A DNA stretch of 37,839 nt from a virus. The position numbers and the translations under genes were made by a program. The stretch covers positions 1 through 37,839 of the IMG/VR virus record IMGVR_UViG_3300046535_000183. One strand, written 5' to 3'. The notes beneath the pieces were generated by a model, which saw nothing but the letters and a program-made list of their open reading frames with translations, searched no databases and was not told where the DNA came from. Positions 1 through 37,839 of the stretch are shown one piece after another (the first letter of the stretch is position 1; each line of letters starts with the position of its first letter).

Positions 1-1248
1 CGACAGGACGAATTCGCCAACAAGGTCCGGCATACCCTCAAGCGCTTTGAGATTGGCCGCATCAAAGGCATCGAGACGCTTGAGGCTGCCGTTGCGGCTT
101 ACCAGGCGAAGCCACATACCGAACCGGAAGCGCCGCGCCCTGTAAGGAACGATGATGGTGAAATCGAGTTGGAAGAAGATGGCATCCGGGATCTTCCGAC
201 CATCGATTACGACGACATCAAGCCGACAGGCAATGTCCACACGCTGGTCCACAAGCTGATCGGCCCAAGCGCCATCTCCATGCTTGTCGCGCCTGGCGGC
301 GCATACAAATCATTCCTCGCTCTGGATATCGCCCTTGCCGTCGCTCAGGGGAAGCCGTGGAGGGGCAGAAAGACCACGCAGGGCATCGTCATCTACGTTG
401 CCGCCGAAGGCGCCCACGGCATGCGCCAGCGCGTCCAGGCCTACCGCATAGACAGGAAGACGGGAACCGGTATCCCATTCGTGCTGGCGCCGGCATCGCT
501 CAACCTGACGAAGGGCGAAGGAGACGCCCGCGCTCTGCTGAAGATCTGCAAAGCGGCAGAAAAGCGCTTCGGCTTGCCGGTTGTCATGATCGTAGTCGAC
601 ACGCTTCACCGAAACTATGGCGGCGCGGATGAAAACGATGCATCGGCAGCCGGCGCGTTCATGCAGAACCTAGACCTCGTGCGTGAGGCCACAGGCGCCC
701 ACATCATGGTCGTTCACCACACCGGCAAAGAAGCAGAGAAGGGCGCCCGCGGATCCTCCTCACTCAAGTTCGCGATTGACACTGAAATCGTCCTTGCCAA
801 AGGCGAGATGGAAGGCGCCGCGCAGGTGACCCGCCAGAAGGACGGTGCCGAAGGAGAGATCTTCCCCTTCAAAATGCGCGTTATCGATCTGGGCGAGGAC
901 GAGGAAGGCGCCCCTATCAATTCCCTCGTCATCGACCACACCGAAAGCAACAGCCTCATACCGGCGCAGCGGCACGCTCTAAACACGAAACAGAAACTCG
1001 CCATGGACGCGCTCAACAACCACTTCGCAGCGCCTGGCGCCGAGAGAACCATCAGCCTCGATATGTTCCGGATCATCATGCTCAAGCGCGGCGTGATTGA
1101 GGACGCAGATCACCGGTCGGTCCTGTCCCGGCTTCGCCAAAGCCTCGAACGCATGAACCTGATCTACTGCGAGAACAAGCAGGTCGGTCTCTTTCTGGCG
1201 CCGTCACGCGGCGTCTTTTCGATGTTTGGAGGCGGGGAAGACGCATGA
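1..1248 (+). CDS. RepA/AAA_25-type replicative helicase ATPase, 5' partial
   Basis: The frame is open from base 1, so the start lies outside the window and the TTG at 169 is internal. The visible part has a RecA-like ATPase core. It contains a Walker A variant APGGAYKS near base 290 with the following helix FLALDIALA, a Walker B strand VVMIVVDT near base 585, and the segment MVVHHTGK that in RepA-like hexameric helicases follows Walker B. A short C-terminal region resembles a winged helix. Members of this family unwind DNA at phage and plasmid origins. The stop codon overlaps the next ATG (ATGA), and a candidate origin follows directly, which fits an initiator or helicase role. The tyrosine before the Walker lysine occurs in this family and is not damage. 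A primase domain could lie upstream but is not visible. Confidence 0.85.
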   Translation, partial: RQDEFANKVRHTLKRFEIGRIKGIETLEAAVAAYQAKPHTEPEAPRPVRNDDGEIELEEDGIRDLPTIDYDDIKPTGNVHTLVHKLIGPSAISMLVAPGGAYKSFLALDIALAVAQGKPWRGRKTTQGIVIYVAAEGAHGMRQRVQAYRIDRKTGTGIPFVLAPASLNLTKGEGDARALLKICKAAEKRFGLPVVMIVVDTLHRNYGGADENDASAAGAFMQNLDLVREATGAHIMVVHHTGKEAEKGARGSSSLKFAIDTEIVLAKGEMEGAAQVTRQKDGAEGEIFPFKMRVIDLGEDEEGAPINSLVIDHTESNSLIPAQRHALNTKQKLAMDALNNHFAAPGAERTISLDMFRIIMLKRGVIEDADHRSVLSRLRQSLERMNLIYCENKQVGLFLAPSRGVFSMFGGGEDA

Positions 1249-1526
1249 TTGGGGCCTTCCAAATAAGGCAATCTTGCCACAATTGCCTGTGGATAACTAG
1301 CGCATTCGACCCTCAAAAAACAGGCTGCGTCGCATACCCAAATGCGACGGCGACGCAACATGCGACGCAATGCGACGCAATTGAAAACATTGAACTTTTT
1401 ATGCGACGCAACATGCGACGCAATGCGACGCGGCGTACCGTAGCGTTGTTGCAGGGTTCTAAGACCTGCAACGATGCGACGCCCTGGAATTCAAGGCAGC
1501 AACAGAGAAAGGAAACACGGAGATGA
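1245..1526 (+). CDS. Small hypothetical ORF across the iteron region
   Basis: This 93-residue frame starts at an ATG overlapping the helicase stop codon, so translational coupling is possible. I recognise no family. The N-terminal half has cysteines 12, 15 and 29 that could form part of a metal site. The rest is forced by the TGCGACGC repeats into runs of Thr, Gln, Arg and Asn, which argues that the DNA rather than the protein is selected here. It may be a real short gene that has become origin DNA, or simply an open frame. Confidence 0.3.
   Translation: MIGAFQIRQSCHNCLWITSAFDPQKTGCVAYPNATATQHATQCDAIENIELFMRRNMRRNATRRTVALLQGSKTCNDATPWNSRQQQRKETRR
1288..1296 (-). promoter_or_regulatory. Consensus DnaA box
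   Basis: The plus strand reads TGTGGATAA, the exact reverse complement of the TTATCCACA DnaA box. It sits about 40 bases after the helicase gene and about 30 bases before the repeat array. One such 9-mer is expected by chance roughly every 130 kb when both strands are counted, so its position is suggestive but not proof. Confidence 0.5.
1327..1482. repeat. Iteron-like TGCGACGC array (candidate origin)
   Basis: ATGCGACGC(AA) occurs at 1360, 1370, 1401, 1413, 1423 and 1474, with a variant at 1342, a partial copy at 1350 and an inverted copy at 1327-1335. Two blocks, 1350-1378 and 1403-1431, are identical over 29 bases and start exactly 53 bases apart, about five helical turns. Between them is an AT-rich stretch (1379-1402). 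Direct repeats in phase with the helix, an AT-rich spacer, a DnaA box and an adjacent helicase gene are the usual parts of an iteron origin. An operator array controlling the helicase operon is the main alternative. Confidence 0.6.
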
Positions 1527-2865: not shown

Positions 2866-2918
2866 CGATGTGAAATGAGTTGCGCGCGTTTGTTTGCAAT
2901 TTCAAGGAAATCCACACC

Positions 2919-3194
2919 ATGCCGAGTGGCGGCAAGCGCGCAGGGGCTGGCAGGCCGAAGGGTGTCGTCAATCGAGTGACGGCAGAAAAGCGTGCGACGA
3001 TCGAAGAGATTGCCAGGCGGTATACCGACGAGGCGATTGCTGTTTTGGTTGATGTCGCGAAGAATGGCGCTAGCGACAGTGCCAGAGTGGGTGCGGCGAC
3101 TGCGCTCCTAGATCGAGGCTATGGCAGGCCGCACCAGCACATGGACCTGCATGCCACGATTGGCCATGAAGACGCTTTGGCCGATCTCGAATGA
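2919..3194 (+). CDS. Terminase small subunit (putative)
   Basis: The ATG at 2919 follows AAGGAAA. The 91-residue protein opens with SGGKRAGAGRPKG, the GRPKG opening common to many phage small terminases and related helix-turn-helix proteins. A helical body follows that could hold the oligomerisation helices. Small terminases recognise the packaging site and stimulate the large subunit. Its stop overlaps the start of the large subunit (ATGA at 3191). That coupling is the strongest evidence for the call, since the sequence signature alone is generic. Confidence 0.75.
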   Translation: MPSGGKRAGAGRPKGVVNRVTAEKRATIEEIARRYTDEAIAVLVDVAKNGASDSARVGAATALLDRGYGRPHQHMDLHATIGHEDALADLE

Positions 3195-4726
3195 CAGCCA
3201 CAACGATGACCGCCAATGAGTTGGCAATACGGCAGCGTTTGAAGGACGACTTTGCGCACTATGCTGCGAAGTGCCTAAAGATCAGAACCAAGGGCGGCAC
3301 GGTCGCCCCGCTGATTTTGAATGAGCCGCAGAGATATTTGCACAATAGATTGGAAGAGCAGCGGCGCAAGACTGGCCGAGTTCGTGCGATTATTCTTAAG
3401 GGGCGCCAGCAAGGCTGTAGCACTTATGTCGGCGCCCGGTATTATTGGCAAACTACTCACAGAAAGGGCTGCCGAACGTTCATCCTGACGCACGAGCAGG
3501 ATGCCACAGACAACCTGTTCGAGATGGTGACGCGGTATCACGAGCATACGCCTGACCTGGTCAAGCCAGTCACAAGTGCCGCCAACGCCAAGGAGCTGAC
3601 GTTCAGCAAACTGGATAGCGGCTATCGCGTCGGCACGGCTGGTACCAAGGGCGTTGGCCGCTCGCAGACGCTACAGCGATTCCATGGCAGCGAGGCGGCA
3701 TTCTGGCCCTTCGCTGATACGCATGCCGCTGGTGTGCTGCAGGCGGTGCCCGATATGCCTGATACCGAAGTGATCTTGGAGAGCACGGCCAACGGCGTTG
3801 GCGGGTTCTTTCACGAGCAGTGGCAGAAGGCGGAAGCTGGGCAGTCCGAGTATCAGGCGATCTTCATCCCATGGTTCTGGACGCCGGAGTATCGGCGTGA
3901 TCCGGGTGACGACTTCGCGCTTGATGACGATGAGGTTGCTTATGCCGACGCTTATCGCTTGGATGACGCGCAGATGGCCTGGCGCCGTGCGAAGATCATT
4001 GAGCTGAAGGATGCGTGGCTGTTCATGCAGGAATACCCTGCGACGGCTGCGGAGGCGTTCCAGGTCTCAGGGCATGATGCCTACATCAAGGCATCGCTTG
4101 TGCTGCAAGCGCGCAAGGCAAGCGTCGTGCCGCATGGCCCATTGATCGTCGGGGTAGACCCTGCGCGCTTCGGCGATGACCGCACGTCGATTGCATGGCG
4201 CCGAGGCCGTCGCATTCTCAAGATCGAAAGCTTCAACAAGCTGGACACGATGGAAGTCGCCGGGCGCGTCATGAAGCTGATCCGAGAGGATCGCCCAACA
4301 CGAGTGTTTGTTGACGTTGGCGGTCTCGGCGCTGGCGTGGTCGACCGGCTGCATGAGATGGGTTACGAGGACATCGTTGACGGCGTGAACTTTGGCTCAG
4401 GCGCGCTCGATGCCGCTCGATACAGCAACCGCCGCGCCGAGATGTGGGGCGAGATGCGCGAGTGGCTAGATGACCCAGCTGGCGTGCAAATCCCGGATGA
4501 CGATGTGTTGCAGGCTGACTTGACCGGGCCGGCTTATAGCTACGACAGCAATAGTCGTCTCAAGCTAGAGCGCAAAGAAGACATGAGAAAGCGCGGCGTG
4601 CGCAGCCCAGATGAAGGCGACGCTGCAGCACTCACTTTCGCTGAACCAGTTAGTAGTTGGGCGGATGATGAGGATGATGTATACAATGACCGTTCTAATC
4701 AACGTGATCAGTTGACGGGGTATTGA
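3191..4726 (+). CDS. terL: Terminase large subunit
   Basis: A 511-residue packaging motor with both expected domains. In the ATPase domain the Walker A loop is GRQQGCST (71-78), HGSEAAFW (165-172) is placed like Walker B, and LESTANG (197-202) is the coupling motif. The RNase H-like nuclease domain begins with VGVDPARFGDD (D323), then VFVDVGG (D375), and ends near SPDEGDAAAL (D474/D477), giving the metal-binding acidic triad. The protein pumps DNA into the prohead through the portal and cuts the concatemer. The order small subunit, large subunit, portal is standard. Confidence 0.95.
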   Translation: MTATTMTANELAIRQRLKDDFAHYAAKCLKIRTKGGTVAPLILNEPQRYLHNRLEEQRRKTGRVRAIILKGRQQGCSTYVGARYYWQTTHRKGCRTFILTHEQDATDNLFEMVTRYHEHTPDLVKPVTSAANAKELTFSKLDSGYRVGTAGTKGVGRSQTLQRFHGSEAAFWPFADTHAAGVLQAVPDMPDTEVILESTANGVGGFFHEQWQKAEAGQSEYQAIFIPWFWTPEYRRDPGDDFALDDDEVAYADAYRLDDAQMAWRRAKIIELKDAWLFMQEYPATAAEAFQVSGHDAYIKASLVLQARKASVVPHGPLIVGVDPARFGDDRTSIAWRRGRRILKIESFNKLDTMEVAGRVMKLIREDRPTRVFVDVGGLGAGVVDRLHEMGYEDIVDGVNFGSGALDAARYSNRRAEMWGEMREWLDDPAGVQIPDDDVLQADLTGPAYSYDSNSRLKLERKEDMRKRGVRSPDEGDAAALTFAEPVSSWADDEDDVYNDRSNQRDQLTGY

Positions 4727-37196: not shown

Positions 37197-37839
37197 TTAG
37201 GCTGCTGCAGGCGCCGGCGAGGTCAGGTGAATGAATTCCTCGACCCAGTCCGCCGCGATTTTCGCAATCTGCGAATTCTCCGGCGTGTCGCCTTCCTTTA
37301 TCCCGAGGAACCACATCTCAGCCGGTCGAGCAGAATTCGGCGAGAGGCCGTTCCCGAGGTCCGAGTAGTTCACGCCTCGGGCATTGGCGATCGTGCCGAC
37401 CAGGCAGGCGCAGGAGCCGGTATAGGTCGAGCCATTGACCTTGCCGTCGCGGAGCGCGCCGAGCAGGGCCGGCGCCTCGCCGCGAGCGCGGAGCAGCACG
37501 TCCCACATGTCATTGCGGATGTCAGACAGCACGGCCAGGGGGAGATTTTTGCTGTCGCCGAGGTTGCTGCCGCTGAGGTCGCTGTCGCGGAGGTCGCTGC
37601 CGCTGAGGTCGCTGCCGCTGAGGTCGCTGCCTCTGAGGTTGCTGTCGCTGAGGTCGCTGTCGCGGAGGTTGCTGCCGCGGAGGTTGCTGCCGCGGAGGTT
37701 GCTGCCGCGGAGGTTGCTGCCGCTGAGGTCGCTGCCGCTGAGGTTGCTGCCGCTGAGGTTGCTGCCGCTGAGGTCGCTGCCGCTGAGGTCGCTGTCGCGG
37801 AGGTTGCTGCCGCTGAGGTCGCTGTCGCGGAGGTTGCTG
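37197..37839 (-). CDS. Pentapeptide-repeat protein, 5' partial
   Basis: The minus-strand frame is open from the right edge to the TAA at 37197, so the start is outside the window. The first 93 or so visible residues are about 19 copies of S-D/N-L-S/R-G/D, the right-handed quadrilateral beta-helix repeat. The C-terminal domain of about 110 residues is non-repetitive: VLSDIRNDMWDVLL, GSTYTGSCACLVGTIAN, and PAEMWFLGIKEGDTPE. Pentapeptide proteins of this type can mimic DNA or act as structural rods. The fixed C-terminal domain is shared by several phage proteins, but its role is unknown. Confidence 0.85.
   Translation of the reverse strand, partial: SNLRDSDLSGSNLRDSDLSGSDLSGSNLSGSNLSGSDLSGSNLRGSNLRGSNLRGSNLRDSDLSDSNLRGSDLSGSDLSGSDLRDSDLSGSNLGDSKNLPLAVLSDIRNDMWDVLLRARGEAPALLGALRDGKVNGSTYTGSCACLVGTIANARGVNYSDLGNGLSPNSARPAEMWFLGIKEGDTPENSQIAKIAADWVEEFIHLTSPAPAAA
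37560..37839 (-). repeat. 15-bp tandem repeat array, about 19 units
   Basis: Units of the form AGCGACCTCAGCGGC run head to tail to the right edge. They are almost identical at the nucleotide level, differing mainly in the D/N codon and the S/R codon. It is coding DNA, not CRISPR. The low divergence suggests recent expansion or ongoing copy-number change. Confidence 0.9.

Follow-up and report, generated by a model that had tools for sequence, protein, structure and literature searches.

The segment between approximately positions 1320 and 1485 of the viral DNA analyzed here is assigned with high confidence as a phage replication origin for which the adjacent RepA-type helicase would act as its own initiator. 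The window is the complete record IMGVR_UViG_3300046535_000183, a linear virus DNA of 37,839 bases whose left edge lies inside the helicase gene. An array of repeated sites (iterons) within this segment is very probably the location at which the phage starts to copy its DNA. The multiple direct repeats, the AT-rich segment, and the position next to the initiator gene that characterize an iteron-type origin are all found here. The original prediction of a candidate replication origin beside the helicase gene is supported by the relatives, where loci with the helicase keep iterons at the same place.

The helicase gene occupies positions 1–1248 on the plus strand, with its stop at 1248 and its 5′-end cut by the start of the record. 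AAA_25 is the sole Pfam family above the cut-off in the protein (E = 3e-37). RSF1010 RepA is the top structural match, and the entries 1nlf (E = 4e-11) and 1g8y (E = 1e-10) are among the top PDB matches. The AAA_25 domain and the RecA fold of a RepA-type hexameric helicase are thus both present, and the predicted placement of the array directly after a RepA/AAA helicase gene is correct. The relatives of this protein are either primase–helicase fusions of ~650–830 amino acids or helicase-only open reading frames (ORFs) of ~365–420 amino acids. Any primase portion of the window protein would lie outside of the record, since the gene is cut at the record start.

The array behind the helicase stop contains eight or nine copies of the near-palindromic iteron (A)TGCGACGCA, where TGCGACGCA is a 9-bp odd palindrome. 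The exact sequence TGCGWCGCA occurs five times in the whole 37,839-base record, and every one of these occurrences is located between 1326 and 1422. Copies with a single mismatch are found at 1349, 1424, and 1475, and ATGCGACGG at 1342 lengthens the array. The first iteron (1326–1335, minus strand) is inverted with respect to the others and reads TGCGTCGCAT on the plus strand. It is positioned 78 bp past the helicase stop, which is farther than in most relatives. Iteron block 1 (1342–1379, plus strand) is composed of the degenerate copies at 1342 and 1349 and exact copies at 1361 and 1371. Iteron block 2 (1401–1432, plus strand) is composed of exact copies at 1402 and 1414 and the one-mismatch copy at 1424. 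Each block holds one copy of the identical 29-bp sequence GCGACGCAACATGCGACGCAATGCGACGC, at 1350–1378 and 1403–1431, respectively, with starts that are 53 bp apart. The iteron sites are centered at 1330, 1353, 1365, 1375, 1406, 1418, 1428, and 1479, and therefore the two 29-bp sequences repeat one 12/10-bp spacing at a distance of 53 bp.

The two blocks are separated by an AT-rich spacer (1380–1400), a candidate unwinding element with an AT content of 80% over positions 1380–1399. Block 2 is followed by a dyad of 16 pairs (1439–1481) with a loop around TTCTAAGA, for which DNA folding gives −14 kcal/mol and a z-score of −4.4. The last iteron (1475–1483, plus strand, one mismatch) is partly inside the right arm of this dyad. 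The order of elements in the window is therefore iterons, AT-rich spacer, iterons, hairpin, and iteron, the same kind of anatomy as in the relatives. The two identical 29-base blocks, the further single iterons, and the AT-rich spacer had been predicted from the DNA sequence, and all of them were confirmed. One 8-mer is present in eight copies within ~155 bp, whereas 60 Markov simulations of the full record gave no cluster denser than 4 copies. Among the real clusters of the record, only a 15-bp tandem repeat at its right end is denser. No match to Rfam was found.

Many viruses with a 60–70% identical terminase large subunit (TerL) have no related helicase in the flanks that were fetched. The phage is therefore a mosaic of packaging and replication modules, and consequently the array was compared through the helicase. 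Viral contigs yielded no relative when the window helicase was the single query. When four annotated phage helicases were included in a profile, numerous loci were obtained from viral contigs and from bacterial genomes, and this set was later extended. The closest helicase to that of the window is from locus L090 (~40% identical), and the window helicase's own close family is absent from the collections searched. For 94 nonredundant loci, at least three copies of some 8-mer occur within 200 bp downstream of the helicase stop in 53% of cases, compared with 16% in the bin just before the stop and 0–6% in all other bins. When a composition-corrected cluster score with a threshold of 14 or more was applied, 66% of 196 loci reached the threshold versus 0.6% of 1,027 control windows taken from these loci. 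The score of the window is 34.6. When arrays that start inside the 3′-end of the gene were allowed, the fraction was 78% of 194 loci versus 3.8% of 448 matched controls. The threshold was also reached by 67% of 82 distinct loci that were fetched afterward.

The check for relatives that have the same helicase and lack the repeats thus came out in favor of an origin. Several of the array-negative loci are near misses or have helicases that are cut before the C-terminal domain. No array accompanies the AAA_25 helicases of SETP3, a Salmonella houtenae element, Gordonia phage Trine, Microcystis phage Mae-JY30, and a Manatee Spring phage. Arrays are also present in Roseobacter phages CRP-811 and CRP-831 and in Alteromonas phage XX1924. 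The arrangement had been regarded as rare among phage origins; it is instead common in this helicase family. When viral contigs were scanned for a DNA pattern of two adjacent iterons, three were hit, and no related helicase is encoded in the stretches fetched from them.

The iteron word varies by locus. The words include CGTCACA, CGTTACC, CGTTCCC, CGTGACA, CGTAACA, CCGGACAT, CGGGACA, TGTCCTAAA, ACTACAAA, GTATAAA, TGTACGATTT, and TGGTTCA, among others. Within a class, the positions and orientations of the iteron sites are nearly constant, although the words differ. In the Rhodobacterales class, plus-strand sites are located near +1, +10, +20, and +55/64 from the helicase stop and minus-strand sites near +84 and +93, with the inversion at a dyad near +75–80. 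In the marine class, which includes CRP-831, the approximate positions are 2 and 12 (plus), 58, 67, 76, and 88 (minus), 108 and 117 (plus), and 136 and 143 (minus). A short dyad with the core CTHTAG is enriched, being found in 48 of 196 loci versus 22 of 1405 controls, and the hairpin of the window is its counterpart. The distant virus at locus L282 has the iteron TGCGACGC, which is nearly that of the window, together with a hairpin in which iterons are embedded. Its helicase and that of the window share an SR pair (residues 376–377 in the window protein).

Two additional observations were made on these loci. Many of the Rhodobacterales-class helicase elements (L232–L274) are on virus contigs of just ~6–19 kb, several of them from isolate genomes, and these elements may be satellites rather than full phages. 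In several Paracoccus loci (L198, L207, L212, L214, and L226), the repeats were found ~100–430 bp before the stop of the helicase frame. The frame therefore seems to stay open across the array, in which case the repeats would code for a C-terminal tail.

The iteron word changes together with a small part of the helicase. Covariation was analyzed with 58–60 loci that have CGTNNCN-group iterons, mainly from Rhodobacterales elements, using the residue numbering of the L182 helicase fragment. The protein column that is most informative on the iteron word (60 loci) is 351, followed by 354. In a partial Mantel scan controlled for identity in the rest of the protein, the signal peaks at residues 348–356 (r = 0.574, z = 5.1, 0 of 500 permutations), whereas the best window before residue 330 reaches an r of only 0.22. 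On a tree calculated with only the helicase core, 24 of the 26 parsimony changes in the iteron word coincide with a change at position 351, versus at most 17 for columns of similar rate before residue 330. In loci that are 90–97% identical over residues 1–330 and have different iterons, the recognition helix differs. The residue and iteron pairs are Met with CGTAACA, Gln with CGTGACA, Thr with CGTCACA, and Val with CGTTACA. A natural swap is provided by L091 (AAARMAFKRAK, CGTAACA) and L096 (SAARQAFKRAK, CGTGACA), which are 97% identical elsewhere. Exceptions to this relation include Met with C and Gln with CGTACCA. The helicases of the cultured Rhizobium phages 16-3 (p101) and RHph_X2_25 are followed by 14 and 16 copies of CGTGACA, respectively, and both have Gln at the equivalent of position 351, as the pattern predicts.

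The predictive power of the helix was evaluated with held-out loci. The nearest helix gave the correct whole iteron word for 4 of 10 loci, whereas the remainder of the protein did so for 1 of 10. Residue 351 by itself gave the correct variable base in just 3 of 10. Where the helix resembles nothing in the training set, none of the six predictions was correct. Every success was obtained with a training-like helix, and therefore the pattern does not yet extend to unlike helices. The recognition helix of the window helicase is diverged and unlike the training set, and its iteron is unpredictable from the helix. The coupled changes in the relatives suggest that the iterons are read by the helicase's own C-terminal winged helix, which changes in step with the repeats.

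The structures of the window helicase and of the C-terminal domain of L182 were modeled with AlphaFold2, with mean pLDDT values of 86 and 84, respectively. The fold order of helix–strand–helix–helix–strand–strand in both models is that of a winged helix. In the window helicase this predicted domain, the proposed iteron-binding domain, comprises residues 329–397 (985–1191, plus strand). Position 351 of L182 is located in the third (recognition) helix. The predicted recognition helix of the window protein comprises residues 368–384 (1102–1152, plus strand), in which S373, S376, and R377 align with the iteron-covarying columns 351, 354, and 355 of the relatives. In a structural comparison of the winged helix, the top-ranked matches were those of Orc1/Cdc6 (Z = 9.4, rmsd 2.9, 82 residues), and MukF, CRP-type, and other winged helices followed closely. 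Since all of these are near one another in the ranking, the comparison identifies the fold and not the function. The P4 alpha and SaPI Rep domains are not among the structural matches listed, which is not evidence of absence.

In the proposed mechanism, the C-terminal winged helix would bind the TGCGACGCA iterons on double-stranded DNA, so that helicase subunits would flank the AT-rich spacer and also occupy the dyad. The DNA would open at the helicase-bound site, and RecA-fold hexamers would load and travel outward. The primase, to which the initiator helicase is fused in some relatives and beside which it is a separate ORF in others, would then prime, possibly at the hairpin. Replication would thereby start at the array.

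The segment could instead be an origin whose iterons are bound by a separate phage or host protein, either DnaA or an initiator like RepC or lambda O, that would also load the helicase. In RSF1010, which has a RepA of the same fold as the window helicase, iteron binding is the task of a separate protein (RepC), and the window contains an exact match to the DnaA box, TTATCCACA, at 1288–1296 on the minus strand. This match had been predicted as a part of the origin. The perfect box is indeed present, but it is a single copy, and DnaA boxes are mostly absent from the relatives (9 of 196, versus 12 of 1405 control windows). The DnaA box was consequently rejected as a core element, and the conserved DnaA boxes of a DnaA-dependent origin are not found. 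A separate binder would not explain why iteron specificity tracks the recognition helix of the helicase, and the neighboring genes differ among the annotated relatives that were looked at. This alternative is improbable, and the covariation makes the C-terminal domain of the helicase, rather than DnaA, the likely binder of the iterons.

The palindromic form of TGCGACGCA is operator-like, and a possible gene start is located at 1523, as would be expected if the repeats were only a transcriptional operator for downstream genes, with a regulator or the helicase as the bound protein. The array is, however, found behind the helicase gene and not before it, and differing genes adjoin it in the relatives. 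No sigma-70-like promoter was found near the array, a scan that is weak evidence in such hosts. At least eight phased copies with an AT-rich spacer and a dyad fit an origin better, and a role as operator alone is very improbable; a dual role as origin and operator is possible. Assignment of the array as a packaging (pac/cos) or partition site is extremely improbable. The terminase genes start 1.4 kb downstream of the array in the window, but in relatives the array stays beside the helicase when the gene order is different and the terminase is located elsewhere (CRP-811). The viruses with 60–70% identical TerL and no related helicase in the fetched flanks also argue against packaging, and packaging or partition proteins would not covary with the helix of the helicase.

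GC skew and integration host factor (IHF) sites were also considered. The cumulative GC-skew minimum of the window, at 1166, is near the array as anticipated for an origin. The record begins at this location, however, and the skew follows gene direction; in two circular relatives, the minimum coincides with a switch of gene strand 4.6–4.8 kb away from the array. The skew is therefore undecisive and was rejected as an origin marker. An IHF site in the spacer appears clear by eye in some relatives; the strict consensus is found in just 14 of 196 loci versus 13 of 1405 controls, and this candidate was rejected. No good match to an IHF site was seen in the window.

The assignment of the helicase as its own initiator can be compared with known systems. 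The oriV of RSF1010 is served by the RepA helicase, the RepB′ primase, and the separate iteron-binding protein RepC. The helicase fold and the combination of iterons, an AT-rich segment, and hairpins are shared with the window, whereas the window helicase seems to carry the reader itself. In the satellite phage P4 (ori and crr), the alpha protein combines primase, helicase, and origin binding. Some relatives of the window helicase are likewise one-protein primase–helicases and would resemble P4 alpha in having a primase, a helicase, and a C-terminal origin-binding domain with iterons. P4 alpha has a superfamily 3 helicase, whereas the window helicase is RecA-fold AAA_25; the fusion of primase and helicase in P4 alpha has been noted (PMC7145576). 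The C-terminal domain of SaPI Rep and of SCCmec Cch2 binds iterons that immediately follow the helicase gene (PMC7581432). The window likewise has iterons directly downstream of the helicase gene with inverted repeats nearby, and a C-terminal double-strand DNA-binding domain is predicted for its helicase from the covariation in relatives. The motors of SaPI Rep and Cch2 are of the DUF927 or Primase_Cterm/D5 type, whereas that of the window matches AAA_25 only and has the RSF1010 RepA fold. The window-type helicase occurs mainly in alphaproteobacterial phages and small elements, which distinguishes it from SaPI Rep and Cch2.

For the plasmid pRN1, a sequence needed for replication is located immediately downstream of the gene for the replication protein orf904 (PMC4234260). 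The required sequence is thus directly behind the gene for a multifunctional replication protein, as proposed here, but that protein is of another class and the plasmid is archaeal. PrimQH-type proteins are primases joined to helicases, some of which are RepA-type, and they carry a winged helix at the C-terminus for which a possible role in origin recognition has been suggested (Kazlauskas 2018, PMC5862659). Origins, iterons, and a recognition pattern are not reported for these proteins in the portions of PMC5862659 that were consulted. No description of iteron arrays or of a recognition pattern for RepA-type motors was found in the literature searched, with subscription papers mostly outside the search.

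RecA-fold replicative helicases usually need a separate loader or initiator. The loci described here are taken, with moderate confidence, to represent a large and mostly undescribed class of origins in phages and small elements that are started by RecA-fold (RepA-type) primase–helicases, which would read the double-stranded iterons directly and need no separate loader. Specificity would be set within one helix by a few residues, with nearly one residue to one base (Gln for G, Val or Lys for T, Thr mostly for C, and Met mostly for A), so that paired changes in the helix and in all of the iterons would make origins diverge and become incompatible with one another. If true, a RecA-fold replicative helicase unites origin recognition and unwinding in one protein, the same combination as in P4 alpha and SaPI Rep, which have other motors. 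The natural swap pairs isolate a handful of residues in the pattern of helicase–origin recognition. The frequent switching of specificity suggests selection against cross-talk between co-resident elements. A simple rule for finding the origin in hundreds of phage and prophage genomes is to look just behind the RepA-type helicase.

The remainder of the gene neighborhood is as follows. The ORF at 1245–1526, which overlaps the array, is probably not a gene and has no Pfam or PHROG match. The ORF at 1523–1792, directly after the array, encodes 89 amino acids with CxxC pairs; it has a weak FYVE zinc-finger match (E = 6e-4, below the Pfam cut-off) and no match in the phage collection. Farther downstream are the genes for a RusA resolvase (2331–2828), a likely terminase small subunit (2880–3194, a weak match), TerL (3191–4726), and a portal protein. 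The 15-bp tandem repeat TTGCTGCCGCTGAGG at 37549–37839 has 19 copies with 89% matches and reaches the right end of the record, where the assembly may have broken within the repeat.
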